Assembly (NCBI GenBank): GCA_963575745.1 | Contig: CAUYUJ010018052.1 | Coordinates: 136,501-200,500, forward strand | Reading direction: 5' to 3' | DNA length: 64,000 nt | DNA from: Prorocentrum cordatum | Lineage: Eukaryota > Sar > Dinophyceae > Prorocentrales > Prorocentraceae | Part shown: piece by piece, positions 1 to 64,000 of the stretch | Numbering within the stretch: the stretch's first letter is position 1 | Layout: every line of letters starts with the position of its first letter | Made by a program: the position numbers and the translations under genes | The notes under the pieces: model-generated | The model's input: the letters and a program-made list of their open reading frames with translations, nothing else | The model's database searches: none | What the model was told of the DNA's origin: nothing

Positions 1-1077
1 GCGCGAAGGCGCCAAACGACTCGAAGATGTCCTGGTTCCAGTGTGCGAGGCACCCGACCGACATGAAGAGAATCAGAAGAACCTTCATGCAGGTGAAGGC
101 ATTGGTGATCATCTTGCCACAGTCCCCGCCAGCGGTGACCAGGATCACGCACAGGAGCATCAGGAGGCCAGCCAGCCAATCGAGATGAGGCTGGTCAAGA
201 ATCTCGTGCACGGTGGTGGCCTCCACACTGTGGTTTCCAGAAGTGACGCTATTGAACGAACTTGCATAGCGACCCTCCAGGCTGGACCAAGGCGTGAAAC
301 ACATCCTGGTGAACGCAACGCTGTTGACCATGCTCGCCACATTCCCCGACCAGCTCCTCTTGGAGGCCAGGAAATTGGCACCAACACCAGCGCAGGGGGT
401 TGCCTCCACATGGGGAAGATGATCCTAGATTTTGGTGTTGGTGGTAATATTTCGGTCACCTTGGAAGCCAGAATATTACCACCATCACCGAGATTGGGTG
501 GGATCGTCTTCCCTCGGTGGAGGCACACCGCCGATCTTGGTGTTGGTGTCAACCTTCACGCCCGGAAGATCCTCGCGACGCCAGCCCCAGAGATGCCGTA
601 CTCCAGGGTGAGGCACACAGAGCTGATCACGGCAGCAAGCTCACCCAGGCAGTGGAACGCGAAGACGTAGGTCGAGCCCCTTGTGGGCAGCCGCGCTGAC
701 AGCTCCATGAACGACAGAGCCGAGAGCAGACACGCAGCGCCAGCAACCATCCACGAGAGCACGGCTGCAGGTCCAGCTACTGGCAATACCTCGCCGCTGA
801 GGACGAAAACTCCAGTGCCAACACAGGTCCCAATGCCGATGCATATTAGATCGAAGAGGCCCAGCTTCGGACCCTCGAGCTCTGCGGCTGCCGCGGCCTC
901 TTTCAATATCGCTGCCATTGTTTTGCGCTTCGCGGACATCTTCACGACCTCCACGGTGGCCATGGTTGGCAAGTTCTCCACGCTGACGCCCTCATTATCA
1001 TAGTCGTCCTCAGACCTTGGATCGGACACGTCCTCTGAAGTCGCGTCGTCGCTGTCGCTATCGCTCTCGAGCGCCAT
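1..1077 (-). CDS. Cationic amino-acid transporter (APC superfamily), 5' part, two exons, runs off the window
   Basis: Predicted membrane permease that moves amino acids across a cell membrane. Exon 1 is 1077-572, the intron is 571-357, and exon 2 is 356-1, still open at the window edge. Residues 1-60 are an acidic, Ser/Asp-rich cytosolic N-tail. Residues 73-96 form the first helix with the APC signature GIGTCVGTGVFVLSGE (81-96). Residues 125-139 carry ELSARLPTRGSTYVF, matching the ELAARxPxxGSxYxY segment of CAT transporters, followed by the LEYGISGAGVAR segment. Exon 2 adds two hydrophobic segments (WLAGLLMLLCVILVTAGG and a later one after ITNAFTC). Start: the ATG at 1077-1075 is the first in this frame; an upstream TTG extends the frame by nine codons but is an unlikely start. 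Without intron removal the frame closes four codons after the donor. Family assignment is strong; substrate is unknown. Confidence 0.88.
357..571 (-). other. GA-AG intron of the transporter gene, 215 nt
   Basis: On the coding strand the exon ends ...GTCGCGAG, the intron starts GATCTTCC and ends CCAAGAG, and the next exon starts GAGCTGG, giving Ala-Arg-Ser-Trp across the junction. The donor is GA rather than GT; dinoflagellates are known to tolerate GC and GA donors. The intron length is not a multiple of three, so it must be removed to keep the frame. Boundaries are inferred from frame and family similarity, not from RNA. Confidence 0.75.
364..565 (-). mobile_element. Introner-like palindromic element, copy 1, inside the transporter intron
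   Basis: The element fills all but about 13 nt of the intron. Its two halves are imperfect reverse complements. The outer arms carry CACCAACACC / GGTGTTGGTG, followed by a GCCTCCAC...GATCC block and a GGTGGTAATATT block on each side of a short centre. It is flanked by TCCTC at 355-359 and 570-574 (plus strand), a likely target-site duplication. Related copies lie at 8400-8530 and 48005-48202. Non-autonomous, no coding capacity. Confidence 0.75.
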
Positions 1078-1217
1078 TGGGAGGTCGCAGGCAAAAGTGA
1101 CCAACCCTCACGCTGCGTGGAGCTCGATGCCAACTACGCAACTGCTCTCAACCGTAGCCCCACTCTCGGCCTCAGGCCTTGAGCACCCCCGCCTCGAGCC
1201 AAAGCTGTGGAAGACGC

Positions 1218-1328
1218 CGAGGAGGAGGAGGAGGAGGAGGAGGAGGAGGAGTGAGGAGGAGGAGTGGGGAGGAGGAGGAGGAGGAGTGAGGAGGAGGAGG
1301 AGGAGGAGGAGGAGGAGGAGGATGAGGA
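1218..1328 (+). repeat. GGA trinucleotide array
   Basis: Nearly pure GGA/GAG repeats with a few GTG and GGG interruptions. Long open frames over it (poly-Arg or poly-Ser) are artefacts. It sits upstream of the transporter start codon (1077), so it could lie in the promoter or 5' region. Confidence 0.9.
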
Positions 1329-1757
1329 GTCAGGGCCCACTGGATCGTGACACCGAGGAGTAGGATCAGAGTAAGCCCATGGTGCATCAATGATGCTGTT
1401 ATGCACCCTCCCGTCCAGAGCCCTGTCCTCACGATTCCCGACAAGCAATCCTTGTCACTGCTAGGAGTGCAGGCGATAGGCCCGCTTTCAGAAAGAACCG
1501 GCCTCCTCTAGCTACGAGACGCGCGCAAATCCAAGTCCAGAACATCGACACACCTCATCGAGAACCTGTCACTTGAAAAGGCCCCTCCTTCCTGTCGCCC
1601 CCTCCCTTCGTGACTGCCCCCTCGCGGACGTTGCTGCTCATCCCCGGTGGGCCGATGGCCGGATCCAACTCCTCCGCGCTGCGTGAGCCGGGCCGGCCCG
1701 TGCGCTCCCGCTGGGCTTCGCCTGCGCCGCACCACCGCGCGCGTGGCCGCGACGCCA
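1329..1757. other. Unique-looking GC-rich spacer, no gene seen
   Basis: No conserved motif in any frame. It separates the GGA array from a TG-rich tract. It may include upstream regulatory sequence of the transporter, but no motif supports that. Confidence 0.4.
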
Positions 1758-1960
1758 AAAGTGCGTGTGTGTGTGTGTTTGTGTGTGTGTCTGTGTGTTT
1801 TTTGTTCTGCGTGTGCGTTTGCGTGCGGACGCCGATGGGTGTGGAGCCCCTGTGTGTGTGTGGAGCCCGATGTCTGTGGTGCCCTTACGTGTGGAGCCCC
1901 ACGCGCGTGTGAAGCCCCGACTGTGGAAACCTGTGTGTGTGTGCGTGCGTGCCTGAGCTG
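1758..1960 (+). repeat. TG-rich microsatellite region
   Basis: Runs of GTGTGTG and TGCGTG broken by unique bases and by repeated words such as GTGTGGAGCCC, which recurs several times between about 1840 and 1915. No coding value. Confidence 0.8.
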
Positions 1961-2479
1961 CCCCGGTACGCAAGGCGCAACACGCAGCGGATTGACACGG
2001 AGCTCCACACGCAGACTGAACACGTACATTCTGAACACGGACGTTTTGAACACGGCACGTGTTGCGTTTCGAAACGTGCGCATCAGAGCAGCTAAGGTGC
2101 GTGCTTCCGCTGGAATCCAGCAGGCAATCCACGGGCAACGGCCAAAACCCTATCGTGGCAACCGCTGGAAGCCGAGGACCCGCCCTCGGGCTGTGGCAAC
2201 ATCCGACGGCGGCGGCAGCAACTGGGGCCCGGCAGCCAGGGGCACTTCCTCACAGCCGGCACAGACAAGAACCCCTCTAAGTGCAAGCGCGGTTTAGGGA
2301 AGTTCAGCGCTTCGTTCCGCAAGCAGGGCTTTGCCGAAGGGGTCCTCGCTTATCGGAGCAAGAGGGCAAGTGCCCATGCCCGTGGCGGCCAGGGTTGCTC
2401 AGGTCGCTCGGTAGTCTTATCGGGCGTGTCTTATATTGTCTTGTGTTTTACGTCGTTTTGCTTTGCTCTGGCATCGCCT
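1961..2479. other. GC-rich spacer, no gene seen
   Basis: Only short open frames without recognisable domains. A run of near-repeats of GAACACGGACGT-like words is visible around 2020-2055. Confidence 0.35.
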
Positions 2480-2995
2480 GTGTTTTCCATGCTTTGTTAC
2501 AGCATGCCATGCTGAGATCTGCCTTGGCATTTCATTTACTGCTGGGCAGTGCAGAGCAATTCAAGGTTCAGACATGCTGCGCAATGCTATGCCGTGCAAT
2601 GCATGCCATGCCAGGGTTTGAATTGCTACGCTGGAGCGCGAGATGGCATGATCTGCTTCCCACTGAGATGGAACACAATGCCGTGCTGTGTTGCGCGATG
2701 TCATGATATGCGCAACAGTTGTTGCAAAAGCAGTGCTGTGGCGTCATACGCTGTGCACCGCTATGCTTTGCAGCAGTGCGCAGCGGTGCGTTATACCATG
2801 CCGCGCTATGTTAAGCGGTGCAGTACTTGGCCATGCCACACTCTGCTCCCTACTTTGCAACCGATTGCAATGTGATGGCTCGATACGCAGTGCTCCACTT
2901 AGCTATGCTAGACATTGCCATCCAGAGGCCATGCCTTGCCATGTTGTGATGTGCCATGCTGCGGCATGACATGCTCCGAGGTGCTGATGTTATAT
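2480..2995. repeat. Degenerate short-word repeat (ATGCC / GCTATG family)
   Basis: The words CATGCC, GCTATGC, TGCGC and GCAATGC recur about every 5-10 bases, giving a degenerate array with an approximate 5-bp step. The same logic appears more cleanly at 32015-32210. Base changes are mostly CG versus TG or CA. Confidence 0.6.
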
Positions 2996-3841
2996 CCGTG
3001 CTTAGTGTATGATGTGCGATGTAGTTGGGTGATCAGTTAGGTGGTGGCATTCAACGAAACAAACTGCAATCTTACCCAATGACATGCTATTACATCAGGC
3101 GTCGCTACGATACAACATCATGCGGAAGTGCTACGTAGTGCTATGATATACGGTGTGTGTGTGTGTGTGTCGTCGCACAGTGTTGCTCACGTATCGTTGC
3201 ATGTTATTGGCAAAGTACCTGCCCCCAGTATGCATAATGCCCAGACCGGAAATTGTGCCTGGCTGGCTGCCTGGCTGAACCTGCACGCGAACGAACGACC
3301 CACGAACCGGCCTCAGAGACCAAACCATTGACGACGCGCGAGCGCCTAGGCAGATCGGGCAACTATTGAGGAAGGCTTGTGACACAGTCGCCGACATCCG
3401 TGCGTCCAGCAGCAACATCACACACGAGGCTGCAGCAGGGGGGGACGGGAGGACCGACGACGGGGAGACGGCAACATCAGCGCATGAGCCGAAACACACT
3501 CCTGCGGTCAGGAACTTCTGCTTCGCGTGTCGCGGCGGGGGCCCCGGCGACACGCTGTGCTCTGCCAGCTGATAGCGCGTCGCTCCGCTCCGCGGGGCGA
3601 GACGCCTGAGGGTTGGGATGTGGACAGCGTGCCGCGCCGAAGCACGGCAGGCCAGAACCGTCGGCGCGACCCGCCAAACCCAGAATCCCGGCCGCAGCTT
3701 TTTTCCGTCGCGGCGGCGGCAGAGGCGATCCGCTCGCGCGTGGAGCAAAACGGGGCTACGGAGCTGCGACTCGGTCGCGCATGCAGGGGGGAGGAAGGGG
3801 GCACTCTCGCGCGGCATCCCGACCGTGACACGCAACATTTA
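2996..3841. other. Spacer, no gene seen
   Basis: Contains a short GTGTGTG run near 3152-3168 and GC-rich DNA with frames in all phases but no domain signature. I see nothing I can call. Confidence 0.35.
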
Positions 3842-4723
3842 GCTCGGGCGTGTGCCCCTACAGGCGGATTTGGGACGAAAAATCCGCCGACCCTGTCGGC
3901 GTGTGTGAGGGGCTTCTCCGTTCGACTCGTCGTCTCCGTCGTCTCCGCTCTCCCCCTCCCAAGGCTCTCCTCCTCAAGCGCGCTATCCAAAGCGAAATTA
4001 AACGACGTCGTAATGGAGTCGAAGGGAAGCCCCTTCCCTTTGATCCCTTCCCCGCAGGGGGGGGGGAGGGGGGGGTCCCGGGGCAGATACGACGCCCGCC
4101 GGGGCGCACTTTCCTCGAGCGGGCACGCACGGGATGCACTGACTCCTCCTCCTGGTCCTCCTCCTCCTCCTCCTCCTCCTCCTCCTCCTCCTTTTCCTCC
4201 TCCTCCTCCTCCTCCTCCTGCTCCTCTCCTCCTCCTCCTCCTCCTCCTCCTCCTCCTCCTCCTCCTCCTCCCGCAGAGGCGTCCCGGGAGCGGGCCCCGA
4301 GTCAAAATACCACCCCCCTAGGGCGCATTTTCCTCGAGCGGGCACGCCCGAGATGCACTTCTTCCTTTTCCGGGAGCACGTCCCAAATCAGAATATCACA
4401 CTCCCGGGGCGCATTTTCTTCGAGCGGGCACACACAAAGGATGCACTTCCTCCTCCTCCTCCTTCTCCTCCTCTTCCTCCTCCTCCTCGTCCTCCTCCTC
4501 CTCCTGCTCCTCATCCTTCTCCTCCTCCTCCTCCTCCTTCTCCGCTTCCTCCCCCCATTCCTAGCCCTTTCGATCAGGGTCGGCGGCACCGGCCGTCAAG
4601 CCTCTCCAATAAAAAAACACCCCAGCAAGTATTCAAGAAGTACGCGACAATTATCAACAAATCTTCCCCTGACTACTTTTTTACTATTTTTGCAGATCCC
4701 TCCTGTAGAGGGACAGGCCCGAC
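3842..4723. mobile_element. TIR element family 2, copy 1, expanded by internal TCC arrays
   Basis: The left end (CTCGGGCGTGTGCCCCTACA at 3843) and right end (reverse complement GTCGGGCCTGTCCCTCTACA, ending 4723) are inverted copies of each other and match the ends of the 157-bp element at 54543-54699. Sub-terminal sequence is also shared: GGGACGAAA after the left end and an AAAAAACAC...TCCCC...TACTATTTTT stretch before the right end. The extra internal length is TCC arrays and three repeated blocks. A TA dinucleotide precedes the left end only. Confidence 0.6.
4098..4553 (+). repeat. TCC arrays alternating with a repeated block of about 40 bp
   Basis: The block GGGGCGCAYTTTCCTCGAGC...GATGCACT occurs at about 4096-4139, 4320-4360 and 4405-4446. 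TCC arrays follow the first copy (4142-4272) and the third (4447-4553). The block and array seem to have been duplicated as a unit. Confidence 0.75.
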
Positions 4724-5279
4724 TTCACGCAACAGTCGAGTCCACAGCTCGACTCGCCGACGACTCGCCGACCCGCTGCGGCACCCCGCCCGCGGCACGC
4801 GCCCCGGGGGCGACTCGGACGCACGCCAAGCGAGGACAGACGCCCCCTCGGACCCCCCCGCGCCGTAGATCCCCGAGCTGGGCCCCAACTCGTCGCCCAG
4901 TCGTTGACTCCCCTACGCCCCGAGAGCCCGAACGTAGCGAGAAACCTCAGGATCCCCCTTCCTTCGTGGCGACGCACCCGGGGCTCGACCCGACGACGCA
5001 CCGAGCCGCTGCGCGGTGGGCCAGGACCGGCGGCGCGGTACGATAAAGCCAAAACTCCCGACCGTGCCATGCGACACCCGAACACACGCCTCGCAACCCG
5101 GCCACAAGCCCACGGGCTCGACCCGACGACTCACCGATCCGCTGCGGGACGCTCTAGCCCCACCCGCGGCACGCGGGGCCCGAGGAGTCCGGCGGTGGCC
5201 CCGCGGTCGCCGCCCGCCACCGGCACCTCCAGCCGAACGAGGGCCTGCCGGGAGGGGAGTGCTCCTCCTGGTCCCTCGT
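4724..5279. other. GC-rich spacer with loose internal repeats, no gene seen
   Basis: The words GGGCTCGACCCGACGAC and CTCGACTCGCCGACGACTCG recur at about 4755, 4980 and 5115, so the stretch is partly a degenerate minisatellite. No domain in any frame. Confidence 0.4.
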
Positions 5280-5280
5280 C

Positions 5281-7503
5281 CTCCACCCTCCTCCGTCCTA
5301 CTCCTCTCCGCCTCCTCCACCTCCTCCTCCCTCGTCCTCGTCTTCGCCTCCTCCTTCGCCTCCTCCCACGTCCTGACTCATCCTCCCCGTCCAGGATTTC
5401 TCCTTCTGGCAAACGCCTCCCTGCCGCACCCCCAGACGTGTCATATAAAGGGCGGGCCAGGCGTTTCGCACGAGACTTCCGCACCGTCTGCGATCCCGAA
5501 GCCTGATAATTTGAAGCCGTTGCACGGATGGAGGGCGGGTCGTCCTCCTCCTCCTCCTCCTCCTCCTCCTCCGCCCTCCTCCCTCCTCTCCTCCCTCCCT
5601 CCTCCCTCCTCCCCTCCCCTCCTCCCTCCTCCTCCTCCCTCCCTACTCCCTCCTCCTCCTCCTCCTCCTCCTCCTCCCTCCTCCCTCTCCCTACCTCCTC
5701 CTCCTCCTCCTCCTCCTCCTCCTCCTCCTCCTCCTCCTCCTCCTCCTCCTCCTCCTCCTCCTCCTCCGCCTCCTCGCTCCTCCTCCTCCTCCTCCTCCTC
5801 CTCCTCCTCCTCCTCCTCCTCCTCTCAAAATGTGGCTCTTGCATTCGCGCCGTGCACGCTCGTCGCAAACACTGCAACGGCATCACGGACGGACGGCGGC
5901 TCCTTTTCAACGTGCGGCTCTCGCTCCTGTGCCGCGCACACTCGCCCTGGACGGTTGCAGCAGGTTTCGGGACGGAGGGCACGCTGCTTTCAAAATGTGG
6001 CTCGCGCCTTCGCTCCGAGGCACAAAAACCATCACGCCACTAATTTTGGGCCCCAGGTCCCACTGAGGCCCCAGGGGCCCCAGATTAGTGAAGCGATGTT
6101 TTTTCCCACGTAGGAACCCCGAAATTCATCACTTCACTAAACCGAACCCAGGACGAAAGTCAGGGGCCGAATTGCTGCTGTGATGCAACATAGGTCTCGT
6201 ATTCGCGCCGCCCGCATGCGCCGCACAACAACTGAAGCAGCTTCAAGGATAGTCGGCGGGCCGTTTTCTTCAGACTGTGGCTCTCACTCTTTACGGCTGC
6301 GCACCTTCGCCTTCCAAGAATGGCAGCACTTTCACAGGCTGTGCGCGATTCGCTTTCAAAACGCGGCTCTCGCCCCAGCACCGCACACATTCGTCCCACA
6401 AGTGCGCAATAATAGGATTCGTATGGTTGAAGACCCCGGGGTGGTGTTCTGGCGCGTGTCAAGGCTGTCATGATGCAACAACCACGTTCGTTCGTGGTGT
6501 TAAAACCTAAGGAATCGTGTTCTGGCACTTGCGGGGATCGCCAGAAAACGATCGTCACACAGATTCGTGGCGCTGTAGTCCCACGAAACACGTGCTGGTA
6601 CGATAGAAGATACTCAGACCGTTGCCTTCCATTAGGGCACCCCCCGCAATGAAAGTAAATTCTGGGAGGAACCTATGTGGAGGGATCTTGGAGGGATGGT
6701 GTATTGCAACATCGTTGGTGCGTCCTGGGTTTGCACCTCTCCTCCTCCTGCTCCTCCATCCGTGTTCTTTCTGCAGAACTCCACCCCGTCGCGCCCCCAG
6801 ACGTGTCCGTAGGGCGGGCCTGGCGTTTCGCTTCAGACTATCTCGCCACTTCTGATCCTGAAGCTGGTAGTTTGCCACAGTTTCACGTGTGGTGGGCGGG
6901 TGGTTTTCACAATGTAGCTCTCGCCTCAGTGCCCCGAGCATTCGTTTCAACCATTCGCAGCGGTTTCGCACATGTAGATGGCGGCCCGTTTTCAAACTGT
7001 TGTTCTTGCTGTAACGCCGCGTGCAATCGCTTAAAACGTTGCATCAAATCCAGTTTCACGGATGGGTGGCGGGTCGTTTCCAAAATGTGGCTCCCGCCCT
7101 AGCGCCGCACACACTCGTCTTGAACATCAACAGAAGTTTCAAGGGTTCTTGGTAGGATCTACGATTGTCAGGACGCAGCGGTCGCGTTGATTTGTTGTAT
7201 TGGAATCCCAGGAATGATGCACTGGCACGACTCAGGGTTCTGAGGACGCAGAGGTCACGTTGATTCGCGGCGTTGAAGTCCCAAGAATGGTGTTTTGCTA
7301 AGAATAAGAATTCTCAGACGGCTGTCTTCCAATGGGGCGCTCCCGCGCATCCCGCATTGAAAGTAAAGTACTGTACGGAGTTAAGAGGAGTGACACTGGG
7401 TGTAGAGTTTACTGCAACATCAAAGTTGCGTCTTGGGATTGTACTGGTCCTCCTCCTCCTCCTTCTCACTCCTCCTCTCCCCTCCTCCTCCTCCCTCCTG
7501 ATC
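5281..7503 (+). repeat. Composite repeat, two consecutive cycles
   Basis: Order seen: TCC-rich 5281-5380; head 5404-5520 (CACCCCCAGACGTG, GGGCGGGCCAGGCGTTTCGC, GAGACTTCC); satellite interrupted by a large TCC array 5546-5826; satellite units 5826-6420; module B 6430-6600 (ATTCGTGGCGCTGTAGTCCC); module C 6610-6730 (GGAGGGA...TATTGCAACATCGTTG); short TCC 6735-6765; head 6775-6870; satellite 6875-7130; module B twice 7145-7300; module C 7310-7440; TCC 7448-7503. The same order recurs at four other places in the window. No coding frame spans it. Confidence 0.75.
5546..5826 (+). repeat. Long TCC array
   Basis: About 280 bp of almost pure TCC/CTC. It interrupts a satellite unit between GGCGGGTCGT on its left and CTCAAAATGTGG on its right; intact units read GGCGGGCCGTTTTCAAAATG. 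The array therefore expanded or inserted at a defined point of the unit. Confidence 0.85.
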
Positions 7504-8240: not shown

Positions 8241-8399
8241 CCGACGGCGGCAGCACGCTCCTGCGAAGGCCGGGGTCTTGCATGTCCGTGCCGAGCTGCG
8301 TGGCTCGATCGGCCGCACCGTTCCCGACACGCCTGCGGCGCTCGGCCTCGTCGGCGTCAGGATCATCGAGGGCCTGGGGCGCACAAACTTTTTTCGGGA

Positions 8400-8530
8400 G
8401 GCACACCAACACCAACATCGGCGGTGTGCCCCCACCGAGGGGAGGTGCTCCCGCTCTCGGTGATGGTGGTAACAGCTTGGCTTCCTAGCTGGCCGAAGTA
8501 TTACCACCAACACCGAATTCTAGAACCATC
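8400..8530 (-). mobile_element. Introner-like palindromic element, copy 2, truncated
   Basis: It shows CACCAACACC, then a CGGCGGTGTGCC arm, then CTCGGTGATGGTGGTAA, a centre with TTGGCTTCC, then TATTACCACCAACACCGAAT. This matches the copy in the transporter intron read on the minus strand. The distal outer arm is missing, so the hairpin is incomplete. No gene context is recognisable around it. Confidence 0.65.
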
Positions 8531-9339
8531 GTCCCGGCGGACGAGACCAGCCTAGGGACGCTTGGGTGAGAGATGCAACTTTTGAGCCGGGACCGGCCGT
8601 CCGGGCATTCCTATAGGCCCACCACGGAATGTTCTTAGAACCCAAACATGTTCTAAAATCGATAGCCATGTTCTTAGAACATTAACCCGATGTGTTGAAA
8701 CAAGACAGTCCCAGCCAGAAACGTTCGAAGAACATTTCATGGAATCCACAGCAGGTTATCAGGTAGGCCTATGGGCACGCCAGGACGTTTCGCCACTGCT
8801 CGAGCAACACGCAGGGCAGGCTGTGCAGACTGACGACGTTCGCCCAGTCCGAGTAAGAGATGCGAAGGGCCGGAGGCGACAGCTCCCTCCGTCGCACAGG
8901 CCGTAAGCTCGCCCGCCCGGGGCGCCTGGGGACAGCCATCCCAGGCAGCACCCCAGGACGCCAGCAGGTGGCGCCAGAGGCCCAGGCACGGCCAGCCCCG
9001 ACCCAGCTGCTGGACGCACGGACGGCACGCCGCGTGCGGGAGCCATCCAGAACGACGTGGCCCCGCGTGCGCACAGAGCCCACGGGCGGGGCAGCCATGC
9101 CTCCGGCCTCGAGGCCGTGCCCTGCTCCTCTCAGTGCGGCCCGCGCAGCCCTGGGGCTTCGTCGGCCCTGGCTGCCCTGTCAATGGGAGCTGCTGGGGTC
9201 CGCCGGGGGCCCCGCTGCACGGCCCCTGCTTGTGCCGTTATGCGGCCGAGGGCGGCCCAAGCTGGACGCCTACTGGGGCTGCCCGATGTTTTGGCTCCCT
9301 CGCGCTCTGGGAGCCTGGTTGCGCCAATGCTGCTAATCC
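8531..9339. other. Spacer with a small palindromic cluster, no gene recognised
   Basis: At 8629-8745 the word ATGTTCTTAGAACAT or close variants occurs four times in both orientations, giving a loose hairpin. The rest is GC-rich DNA without recognisable products, despite long open frames on both strands. Confidence 0.4.
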
Positions 9340-15639: not shown

Positions 15640-15874
15640 TTTGTTCGGCCCGAAAGTGGGGACGGGGAGGCCGCAGCCAGGAGCCCACGGCCAAGGCCGG
15701 GAGAGGGAAAAATGGATGCCCGCGGCCGCCGCCGGGGCTCCACGCGGCCGAGGCTCCGAGCCCAGACCTTTTGGCGGACGTCGGCGCCCCGGCCGGGTCG
15801 GCAGGCCCCGTCTGCCAGGCTCGTGGCCCAGAGGGGGCTTGTTCGGGCGTTGCTAGGAGTGCCCCTGGCCCGAG

Positions 15875-16022
15875 GTAACCCCCAGCTTTTCGCTCCATTT
15901 TTGAGCCCCTGGGGCCCTCTGGGCCTCGTTAGGGGTGCTCTGGAGGCCGGCTGGGCCACCCTGGGAACCCTGGGGGCACCTTGGGCCAGGGGCACTTCCA
16001 GCAACACCCGACTTGTGGAGGC
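15875..16022 (+). repeat. Dispersed repeat of about 140 bp, copy 1 of a pair
   Basis: Shares with 19415-19560 the words CTTTTCGCTCCATTTT, GGGGCCCTCTGGGCCTCGT, CTGGGGGCACCTTGGG and CAGGGGCACTTCCAGCAACA, in the same order and spacing. The two copies differ by scattered substitutions. Function unknown. Confidence 0.75.
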
Positions 16023-47870: not shown

Positions 47871-48004
47871 CGCCCCTGCCGGGCGGCCGAGCGGCCCCCG
47901 CGAGAGCCCAGAGCGGCCCCCGACACCCACCAGACGCCCGAAGACTGCCCAAGGAGGACCCCCAGGAGACCATCGAGCAACAGAAAAAAGGACGTCCCAA
48001 TCGG

Positions 48005-48202
48005 AGGCCTGGAAATTGGCACCAACACCAAGACAGGGGGTTGCCTCCACAGGGGGAAGGTGATCCTAGATTTTCGGTGTTGGTGGTAACAGTTCGGCCA
48101 CCTTGGAAGCCAGAATATCACCACCATCACCGAGATCGGGATCGTTCTTCCCTCGGTGGAGGAACAGCGCCGATATTGGTGTTGGTGTCAATCTCTAGGC
48201 CT
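48005..48202 (+). mobile_element. Introner-like palindromic element, copy 3, full length
   Basis: Starts AGGCCTGGAAATTGGCACCA and its reverse complement starts AGGCCTAGAGATTGACACCA, giving terminal inverted repeats of about 25 nt. The inner arms (TTGCCTCCAC...GGTGATCC against GATCGTTCTTCCC...GGTGGAGG) and the GGTGGTAA / ATCACCACCATCACC centre match copy 1. Flanked by CCCAAT at 47996-48001 and 48207-48212, a likely target duplication with a 3-4 nt spacer, as at copy 1. No host gene is recognisable. Confidence 0.72.
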
Positions 48203-48204
48203 GC

Positions 48205-48510
48205 GACCCAATGTTTGTGCATGATTTTCTGGGCGTCCGAGACCGCCCAGGAGTCGGTCCACACACCTCGGCGGAAGCTGCTTGAGCCGACAGCGTGTTC
48301 CGGCATGCCTTTTCTAAGCGTTTCCCAATACGCGTGCCCAGAAGCTCTCCAGAAGGCACTTCGGAAGCTCTCTCCAGGTCCTTCCAGAAGTTCTTCGCCG
48401 GGCCTTTCCACGCCATTCGGGCGCCCTGTTATCTGGGATTTGGGCCCCACAAGTGATTTCCCAATGTTTGTATATGATTTTCTGGGCGTCCGAGACCGCC
48501 CAGGAGGCCC
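48205..48510 (+). repeat. Duplicated block GGCGTCCGAGACCGCCCAGG
   Basis: CCCAATGTTTGTRYATGATT followed by TTCTGGGCGTCCGAGACCG occurs at 48207-48252 and again at 48460-48508. The first copy starts exactly at the right flank of the introner-like element. Confidence 0.75.
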
Positions 48511-61859: not shown

Positions 61860-63650
61860 TGTTTGGCGCCTTCGGTACAAGGAAACGCTCTGTTGTTGTG
61901 TTGTTTTCTGGCTTCTTGGGTCTAGGATGCAAGGAAACACGGTGTAAGTTTGGTTATTTGGGTTTTGTGGGCTTGGAAAGCTCAAGTGCTCCCCGCGGCC
62001 TCCCCCCCAGCACCTCCTCCTTCCCTTTTCTCTCCTTGTTGCAAAACAAGAAAATCAAGCATACGCAATGTTTGGCGCTTTCGATGCAAGGAACCGCTGT
62101 TTTTTATATTATGATGTGTTGCTTGGGTCTAGGATGCAAGGAAACACTGCGTATGGTTGGTTACTTTGGTTGTGTTTTTTTGGGTTTGGAGGCTCAAATG
62201 CTGCCCGCGGCCTCCCCCCCCCAGCGCCTCCTCCGTTCCTCTCCTTCTCCTTGCTGCAAAACAAGAAAACCAAACATACACAGTGTTTGGCGCCCTCGAT
62301 GCAAGGACGCGCTGTGTATCGTTGTTTGTTTCCGTTTTTTGGTTGAGGATGCAAGGAAACACTCCGTATGTTTGGATACGTTGGTTTTTGCGGCTTGGGG
62401 GGCTCAAGTGCTTCCCGCGTCCCCCCAGCGCCTCCTCCTTTCCTTTCCTCCTCCTTGTTGCAAAGCAAGAAAACCAAACATACACGGTGTTTGGCGCCCT
62501 CGATGCAAAGAAACGCTGTGTAGTTTTGGTTGGTATGGCATTTCCGGTCTAGGATGCAAGGAAACACGGTATATTTCTGGTAAGTTTGTTGTTCTCTGGC
62601 TTTGGAAGCTCAAGTGCTCCCCGCGGCCTCCCCCCCAGCACCTCCTCCTTCCCTTTTCTCTCCTTGTTGCAAAACAAGAAAATCAAGCATACGCAATGTT
62701 TGGCGCTTTCGATGCAAGGAACCGCTGTTTTTTATATTATGATTTGTTGCTTGGGTCTAGGATGCAAGGAAACACTGCGTATGGTTGGTTACTTTGGTTG
62801 TGTTTTTTTGGGTTTGGAGGCTCAAGTGCTGCCCGCGGCCTCCCCCCCCAGCGCCTCCTCCGTTCCTCTCCTTCTCCTTGCTGCAAAACAAGAAAACCAA
62901 ACATACACAGTGTTTGGCGCCCTCGATGCAAGGACGCGCTGTGTATCGTTGTTTGTTTCCGTTTTTTGGTTTAGGATGCAAGGAAACACTGCGTATGTTT
63001 GGTTACTTTGGTTTTTTGTTTTTGGAAGCTCAAGTGCTCCCCGCGGCCTCCCCCCCAGCAGCTCCCCCTTTCCTTTCCTCCTCCTTTCTGCAAAGCAAGA
63101 AAACCAAACATACACAGTGTTTGGCGCCCTCGGTGTAAGGAAACGCTGTGTAGTTTTGGTTGTTCTGGTATTTTCGGTCTAGGATGCAAGGGAACACGGT
63201 GTATTTCTGGTAACGTTTTTTTTTTGTGTGGGTTTGGGAAGCTCAAGTGCTCCCCGCGGCCTCCCCCCAGCTCCAGTGTCTGGCGCCCTCGATGCAAGGG
63301 AACGCTGTGTATAGTTGTTCTTTCTTGTTTTATTGCTTGGGTCTGGGATGCAAGGAAACACTGTGTATGTTTGGTTATGATGTTTTTTTTGGCTTTGGAA
63401 GCTCAAGTGCTCCCCGCGTCCACCCCCAGCATCTCCTCCTTTCCTTTCCTCCTCCTTGTTGCAAATCAAGAAAACCAAACATACACTGTGTTTGGCGCCC
63501 TCGATGCAAGGAAACGCTGTGTATTCTGATTGTTTAGGATGCAAGACAACACGGTGTATGTTTGCTTATTTTGTTTTGGGGGGTTCTGGAAGCTCAAGTG
63601 CTCCCCGCGCCCCCCCCAGCACCGCTTCCTTCTCTTCCGGAGCCCCTAAA
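61860..63650 (+). repeat. 210-bp tandem array, eight to nine units, with higher-order duplication
   Basis: The anchor CTCAAGTGCT is at 61981, 62193 (AAATG variant), 62403, 62609, 62821, 63029, 63242, 63392 (shortened) and 63593. Each unit has CCCGCGGCCTCCCCCC, a TCCTCC stretch, TTGCAAARCAAGAAAAC, GTGTTTGGCGCCCTCGATGC and GGATGCAAGGAAACAC. Units 1-3 (from 61981) and 4-6 (from 62609) are nearly identical pairwise, so a 628-bp trimer was duplicated recently. Interrupted frames only; not coding. Confidence 0.9.
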
Positions 63651-64000
63651 CCCCAAAACACAACATCACAAAAAAACATCATTGTGTTTCGTTGCATCCG
63701 AAACCGAACATGCCAGAACAACCAAGCACACACAACGACTCCTTGTATCGAGGGCGCCAAACACTGTGTATGTTTGGTTTTCTTGCTTTGCAGAAAGGAG
63801 GAGGAAAGGAAAGGGGGAGGTGCTGGGGGGGAGGCCGCGGGGAGCACTTGAGCTTCCAAAAACAAAAAACCAAAGTAACCAAACATACGCAGTGTTTCCT
63901 TGCATCCCAGACCAAAAAAAACGGAAACAAACAAACATACACAGCGTGTCCTCGCATCGAGGGTTCCAAACACCGTGTATGTGTGGGTTTTCTTGCTTTG
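63651..64000 (-). repeat. Inverted continuation of the 210-bp array
   Basis: From about 63665 the same unit runs in reverse: GAGGGCGCCAAACACTG near 63750, GTTTTCTTGCTTTGCA near 63777, GAGCACTTGAGCTTCC at 63841, GTGTTTCCTTGCATCC near 63892. The array therefore turns around at about 63655 and continues past the window. Confidence 0.88.

Follow-up and report, generated by a model that had tools for sequence, protein, structure and literature searches.

A palindromic MITE in a transporter exon of Prorocentrum cordatum very probably became an intron with both splice sites drawn from its duplicated target

Introns made by introner elements have been described in several lineages, and the available parts of the reports cited here allow comparison with copy A, a palindromic MITE copy that coincides exactly with an intron of a transporter gene in the dinoflagellate Prorocentrum cordatum. 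In an introner family of Florenciella the insertion site supplies the 5' as well as the 3' splice site (Gozashti et al. 2022, PMC9860276), and in Florenciella and copy A alike the element brings no splice sites of its own, both being taken from target bases. The Florenciella family, however, was found as introns, whereas the family of copy A as sampled is a general MITE, and the Florenciella example is 67 bp long by its coordinates, against 210 bp for the palindromic copy A. Introners of Symbiodinium microadriaticum, also a dinoflagellate, share with copy A the terminal inverted repeats, a short duplication and a 5' splice site derived from it, but their duplication is 4 bp long and their 3' splice site lies in the element, whereas the 5-bp duplication of copy A holds both sites (PMC9860276). 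The introner elements of Amoebophrya resemble copy A as hairpin introns with inverted repeats and with direct repeats of 3-5 nt across the exon borders (Farhat et al. 2021, PMC7789003); they differ in their very diverse splice motifs and in that no family-specific inverted repeats were found by the authors, whereas copy A is bordered by GA-AG and belongs to one defined MITE family. In P. cordatum itself, repeat-bearing introns were reported to be enriched, and the donors were GT in 24.7%, GC in 51.4% and GA in 23.8%, with AGG at 79.7% of acceptors (Dougan et al. 2023, PMC10666404). Copy A agrees with that description, but in its available part that report defines the elements by pattern alone and mentions neither the copy A family nor its free copies or target duplication. 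For Polarella glacialis, 12,253 introns from recent introners are given (Roy et al. 2023, as cited in the review PMC11453091); these dinoflagellate introners are like copy A in that introns were gained recently by transposable elements. Published precedents exist both for introners that derive their donor and acceptor sites from the target and for dinoflagellate introns that carry inverted repeats and repeats at their boundaries; copy A cleanly exemplifies a known route of intron gain. Literature on this MITE family itself was not found, as judged by titles and the beginnings of abstracts.

The window, the whole stretch of DNA that was analysed, covers 64,000 nucleotides of contig CAUYUJ010018052.1 (C17203 in our numbering) with a G+C content of 59.3%, and searches were made in the genome of 4,128,499,153 bases on 21,875 contigs. 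The transporter gene is encoded on the minus strand (Table 1), has several introns and occupies positions 124 to 6825 of the joined stretch, about 6.7 kb in all. The exon 1 product is identical to the predicted protein P0001, and differs from a second protein of 669 residues, P0039, only by A12V; over residues 1-345, P0039 is 99% identical to the gene. The spliced frame gave a Pfam match to AA_permease_2 (4e-13). Three PDB alignments among the matches listed, all to amino-acid transporters, ran without gaps across the intron 1 junction, and 25 of the 27 rows of a protein alignment were likewise ungapped there, the other two stopping at the junction or earlier.

Table 1. Positions of the transporter exons, intron 1, the target duplication and the MITE copies in the window (caret, cut point)
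Feature	Position	Strand	Remarks
Exon 1, cationic amino-acid transporter (APC/CAT-like)	572..1077	-	ATG 1077-1075; ends ...GTC GCG AG
Intron 1, 215 nt	357..571	-	GA-AG in register GAG^GATCTT...CAAGAG^GA; phase 2, inside Arg169
Exon 2, start	1..356	-	G AGC TGG ...; extends beyond the window edge, below 136501 of C17203
Target duplication, upstream copy GAGGA	570..574	-	Contains 5' splice site GAG^GA
Target duplication, downstream copy GAGGA	355..359	-	Contains 3' splice site GAG^GA
MITE copy A, foldback	360..569	.	210 bp between target duplications
Donor-side element end, rewritten relative to family	548..569	-	Coding strand TCTTCCGGGCGTGAAGG for TCGCAGGCCTAGAGG
MITE copy B	48001..48206	+	CCCAA at 47996-48000 and 48207-48211; AGG absent from target
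MITE copy C, partial	8397..8535 (approximate limits)	-	

Intron 1 had been predicted from the sequence as a 215-nt intron flanked by GAGGA, and on the coding strand this pentamer was found exact in both copies (574-570 and 359-355). Removal of the 215 nt restores GCG AGG AGC TGG in frame, again as predicted for cuts at GAG^GA. The cut may be placed in six equivalent registers, each removing 215 nt and giving the same mRNA, and P0039 fits all six with 0 mismatches. The spliced reading joins the exon 1 end ...GTCGCGAG to GAGCTGG, the uninterrupted site being GCGAGGAGCTGG; P0001, which comes from a contig equal in length to C17203, has the same junction. When intron 1 is retained, a stop appears within five codons of the junction, and when it is removed, the transporter frame runs on. 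Among the six registers, only GAG^GATCTT...CAAGAG^GA combines a donor and an acceptor in forms that dinoflagellates are reported to use, in agreement with the rule of a donor G[TCA] and an acceptor AG followed by G (GAG^GATCTT...CAAGAG^GAG). GAG^GA would thus be the register in use, and the spliceosome presumably the machinery that removes the intron. The proposal that insertion into this pentamer explains the GA donor holds, but is less sharp than first stated, as introns 3 and 4 of the same gene are also compatible with GA-AG and 23.8% of the donors of the species are GA (PMC10666404).

Splicing of intron 1 is very probable, since P0039 reads through the junction and the contigs that encode it measure no more than 2,512 nt, against about 6.7 kb for the gene; given that span, the P0039 contig is very probably a transcript. 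P0039 differs from the genome and P0001 by A12V and A338V, besides the stretch in which P0001 departs, so that it represents another allele or strain. Together with the course of P0001, which leaves the transporter-family frame after exon 2 (residues 339-434), this could mean that the insertion is unspliced and the gene copy broken, P0039 having come from a strain or locus that lacks the insertion. P0039, however, maps to this locus exon by exon with the frame open in the matched exons (its final approximately 40 residues before the end being resolved only in part), and in view of this mapping the shift in P0001 is probably a wrong splice choice or other gene-model error. In addition, no second locus for P0039 was found in the genome, where all matches outside C17203 were at most 60% identical. 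A broken, unspliced copy is therefore very unlikely, and we retain the reading in which intron 1 is spliced out.

The other introns of the gene showed features of their own. The P0039-matched intron 2 in C17203 (950 nt) has no listed register ending in AG (for example, GC...CC); its single mismatch to P0039 fits A338V, and a missed micro-exon may be present. Exact border repeats of 5 to 7 nt were observed at introns 3, 4 and 6 (CAG^GA, AG^GACGG and G^GTCG; C17203:127000-137700, minus strand), and intron 4 is flanked on either side by an almost exact repeat of about 25 nt of exon sequence. Introns 3 and 4 are without terminal inverted repeats. Introns 2-5 were considered as foldback elements and rejected, as their terminal 80 nt are no more inverted-repeat than shuffled sequences.

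Intron 1 folds as RNA at -102.7 kcal/mol (z -8.4), and 0 of 200 dinucleotide shuffles were as stable. Copy A and its reverse complement are 68.5% identical, a value that averaged 51% +/- 2.4 and reached at most 56% in 200 shuffles. The foldback is strong and far beyond chance, but its description as near-perfect was excessive because the arms are only 72-88% complementary, and the element, first taken as 202 bp, measures 210 bp (360-569). Read on either strand, its first base is T and its last base A, so each splice site needs bases of the target. A search of the window against Rfam gave nothing at the gathering score. A search of viral_contigs for a 20-mer from the element gave no exact match, and three stretches there fit a P0039 pattern, none of them a relative.

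That the element is mobile and palindromic was supported by its copies in the genome. The 30-base left end occurs exactly 631 times and its reversed control 0 times, and in a DNA search with copy A 40 of 2,972 candidates were scored, all 40 places being 90-100% identical to the query. We fetched 89 copies, 39 by similarity to copy A and 50 from among the 631, taken in the order of the contigs; both ends were recognisable in 80 of the 89. The terminal inverted repeats of the family are TTGGAGGCC...GGCCTGCGA. Perfect 5-bp flanking repeats were found in 57 of the 80 copies, representing 55 independent sites, with four of five bases repeated in 11 more; mismatched pairs as a control gave 14 perfect repeats in 5,000. 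Dispersed near-identical copies with fixed ends, terminal inverted repeats and a target duplication of fixed length identify the family as a MITE. A 5-nt repeat at an intron is in itself weak evidence, because AG^G is the splice consensus and intron 3 has such a repeat without inverted repeats; the case for a target duplication therefore rests on the family statistics. Since the family shows 57 of 80 perfect repeats against 14 of 5,000, GAGGA can be assigned as a MITE target duplication holding both splice sites, as originally proposed. Family targets lean to C-A-N-T-G, a preference from which GAGGA departs. The body of copy A deviates by 2.2% from the family consensus (four substitutions and a 4-base insertion), compared with a mean of 4.5% in other copies, indicating that it is not an old insertion.

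Comparison loci for the empty site were paralogues of at most 60% identity, not orthologues, in the same genome. All three that were fetched with exons covering the codon (C14, C17541 and C17066) are uninterrupted there; the matches in C3781 and C13511 end before it. The C14 paralogue reads GCC AGG AGC TGG, of which AGG AGC TGG is the same as that restored in the gene with copy A. The following course of events is, in our judgement, highly likely. A palindromic MITE, as a non-autonomous DNA transposon that makes 5-bp target duplications, would have entered the transporter exon at GAGGA, presumably moved by a transposase, the insertion point lying within an AG^G proto-splice site. Duplication of the pentamer would have placed one AG^GA on each side, one serving as donor (GA) and the other as acceptor (AG^G), both accepted in this lineage, and the element would be spliced out with the mRNA left unchanged.

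The C14 paralogue carries, elsewhere in an exon, an almost perfect palindrome of 153 bp (L064:3811-3963; G000:C14:82310-82462) with TCACC on both sides. Its removal restores ACLTLEYG, and no register gives G[TCA]-AG, implying that the gene is either broken or spliced without AG. The 26-base end of this palindrome has 5,913 and 5,891 genome occurrences with at most one mismatch, and 0 when reversed. No near-identical protein was found for this paralogue, the highest identity being 56% in the best 120 of 146 matches.

The donor-side end of copy A is unlike that of its family. Its 20 nt are 30% divergent with two extra bases, compared with an average of 5.9% in other copies, and 0 of 80 other copies are as changed at that end. 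Six of the ten substitutions of copy A fall within this one tenth of its length, the last 20 nt (binomial 1.3e-4), and the end now pairs poorly. Because it departs from the family, the point at which the element first joined the exon is less securely placed on this side. The donor-side 20 nt might even not be element sequence, as would be expected if an older intron had occupied the site and the MITE had later inserted next to its splice sites. The element and one pentamer, however, account for all 215 nt with no remainder, and the three paralogues have no intron there; we consider an older intron extremely improbable. Under the preferred reading, insertion of the MITE into an uninterrupted exon, the rewriting of the donor end may have come about by selection for splicing, by repair at insertion or by local conversion. 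That it followed insertion, with the host selecting a better 5' splice site and the transposon now midway in being tuned into an intron, is possible but rather doubtful. Two other accounts of this end were rejected. One was a separate subfamily characterised by a donor-like end, but the 31-base end matches the genome once within three mismatches, at copy A itself. The other had the rewritten end freeing the splice sites from the hairpin, of which folding gave no indication, mean donor pairing being 0.84, against 0.71 with consensus ends.

Whether the family spreads mainly by making introns, copy A being one of many, was then considered, for the original prediction had called copy A an introner. 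Such a view is consistent with copy A being an exact intron, and with the reported enrichment in P. cordatum introns of inverted repeats at the ends (8-20 nt) and direct repeats (3-5 nt) in the available part of PMC10666404. AGG targets on either strand (AGG or CCT) number 11 of 57, above the 7.7 expected from the flanks, but composition-matched triplets are equally frequent (GAG or CTC, 11; GGA or TCC, 10), leaving no clear AGG enrichment in this sample. The number of splice-competent copies is 15 when targets starting with GG in the sense orientation are included. In 12 of these, scanned although not in every frame, no Pfam match was found across the joined empty site, an absence compatible with exons of unknown proteins; the other three (L073, L081 and L082) are low-complexity. 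The T...A ends of the element on either strand, which leave each splice site dependent on target bases, also argue against a true introner. The proposed genome search did yield many copies with 5-bp duplications, but no second exact intron was recognised among the sampled family copies. The copies in C14090 and C3235, which BLAST extended to the full query, were rejected as sister introns, as the extension lies in their flanks and they have duplications of their own, AACTC and CATCC. A true introner is thus unlikely, and judged by the copies sampled this is an ordinary MITE family that has produced an occasional intron in copy A.

These observations indicate that landing at an exonic AGG proto-splice site turns an ordinary MITE, itself lacking splice sites, into an intron, an indication that rests on one locus, its uninterrupted paralogues and a measured target duplication. 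For genomes with relaxed donors (GT, GC and GA), they suggest that the supply of new introns may follow MITE traffic in exons, without specialised introners. The rewritten donor end provides a testable case of tuning after the birth of an intron.

When the window was scanned de novo for inverted repeats accompanied by 5-bp duplications, seven hits were obtained, against 0-1 in ten triplet-block shuffles; copies A and B were missed, as their ends lie below its pairing threshold. Two MITE-like candidates were noted in the window, one of 169 bp at 15843-16011 that has ends TCGGGYGTTGCTRG and is flanked by CTTGT repeats, and one of 273 bp at 63490-63762 whose 14-base inverted ends GTTTGGCGCCCTCG are identical and lie between copies of ACTGT. 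A long GGA/GAG repeat is located at 1215-1322, just upstream of the transporter start.
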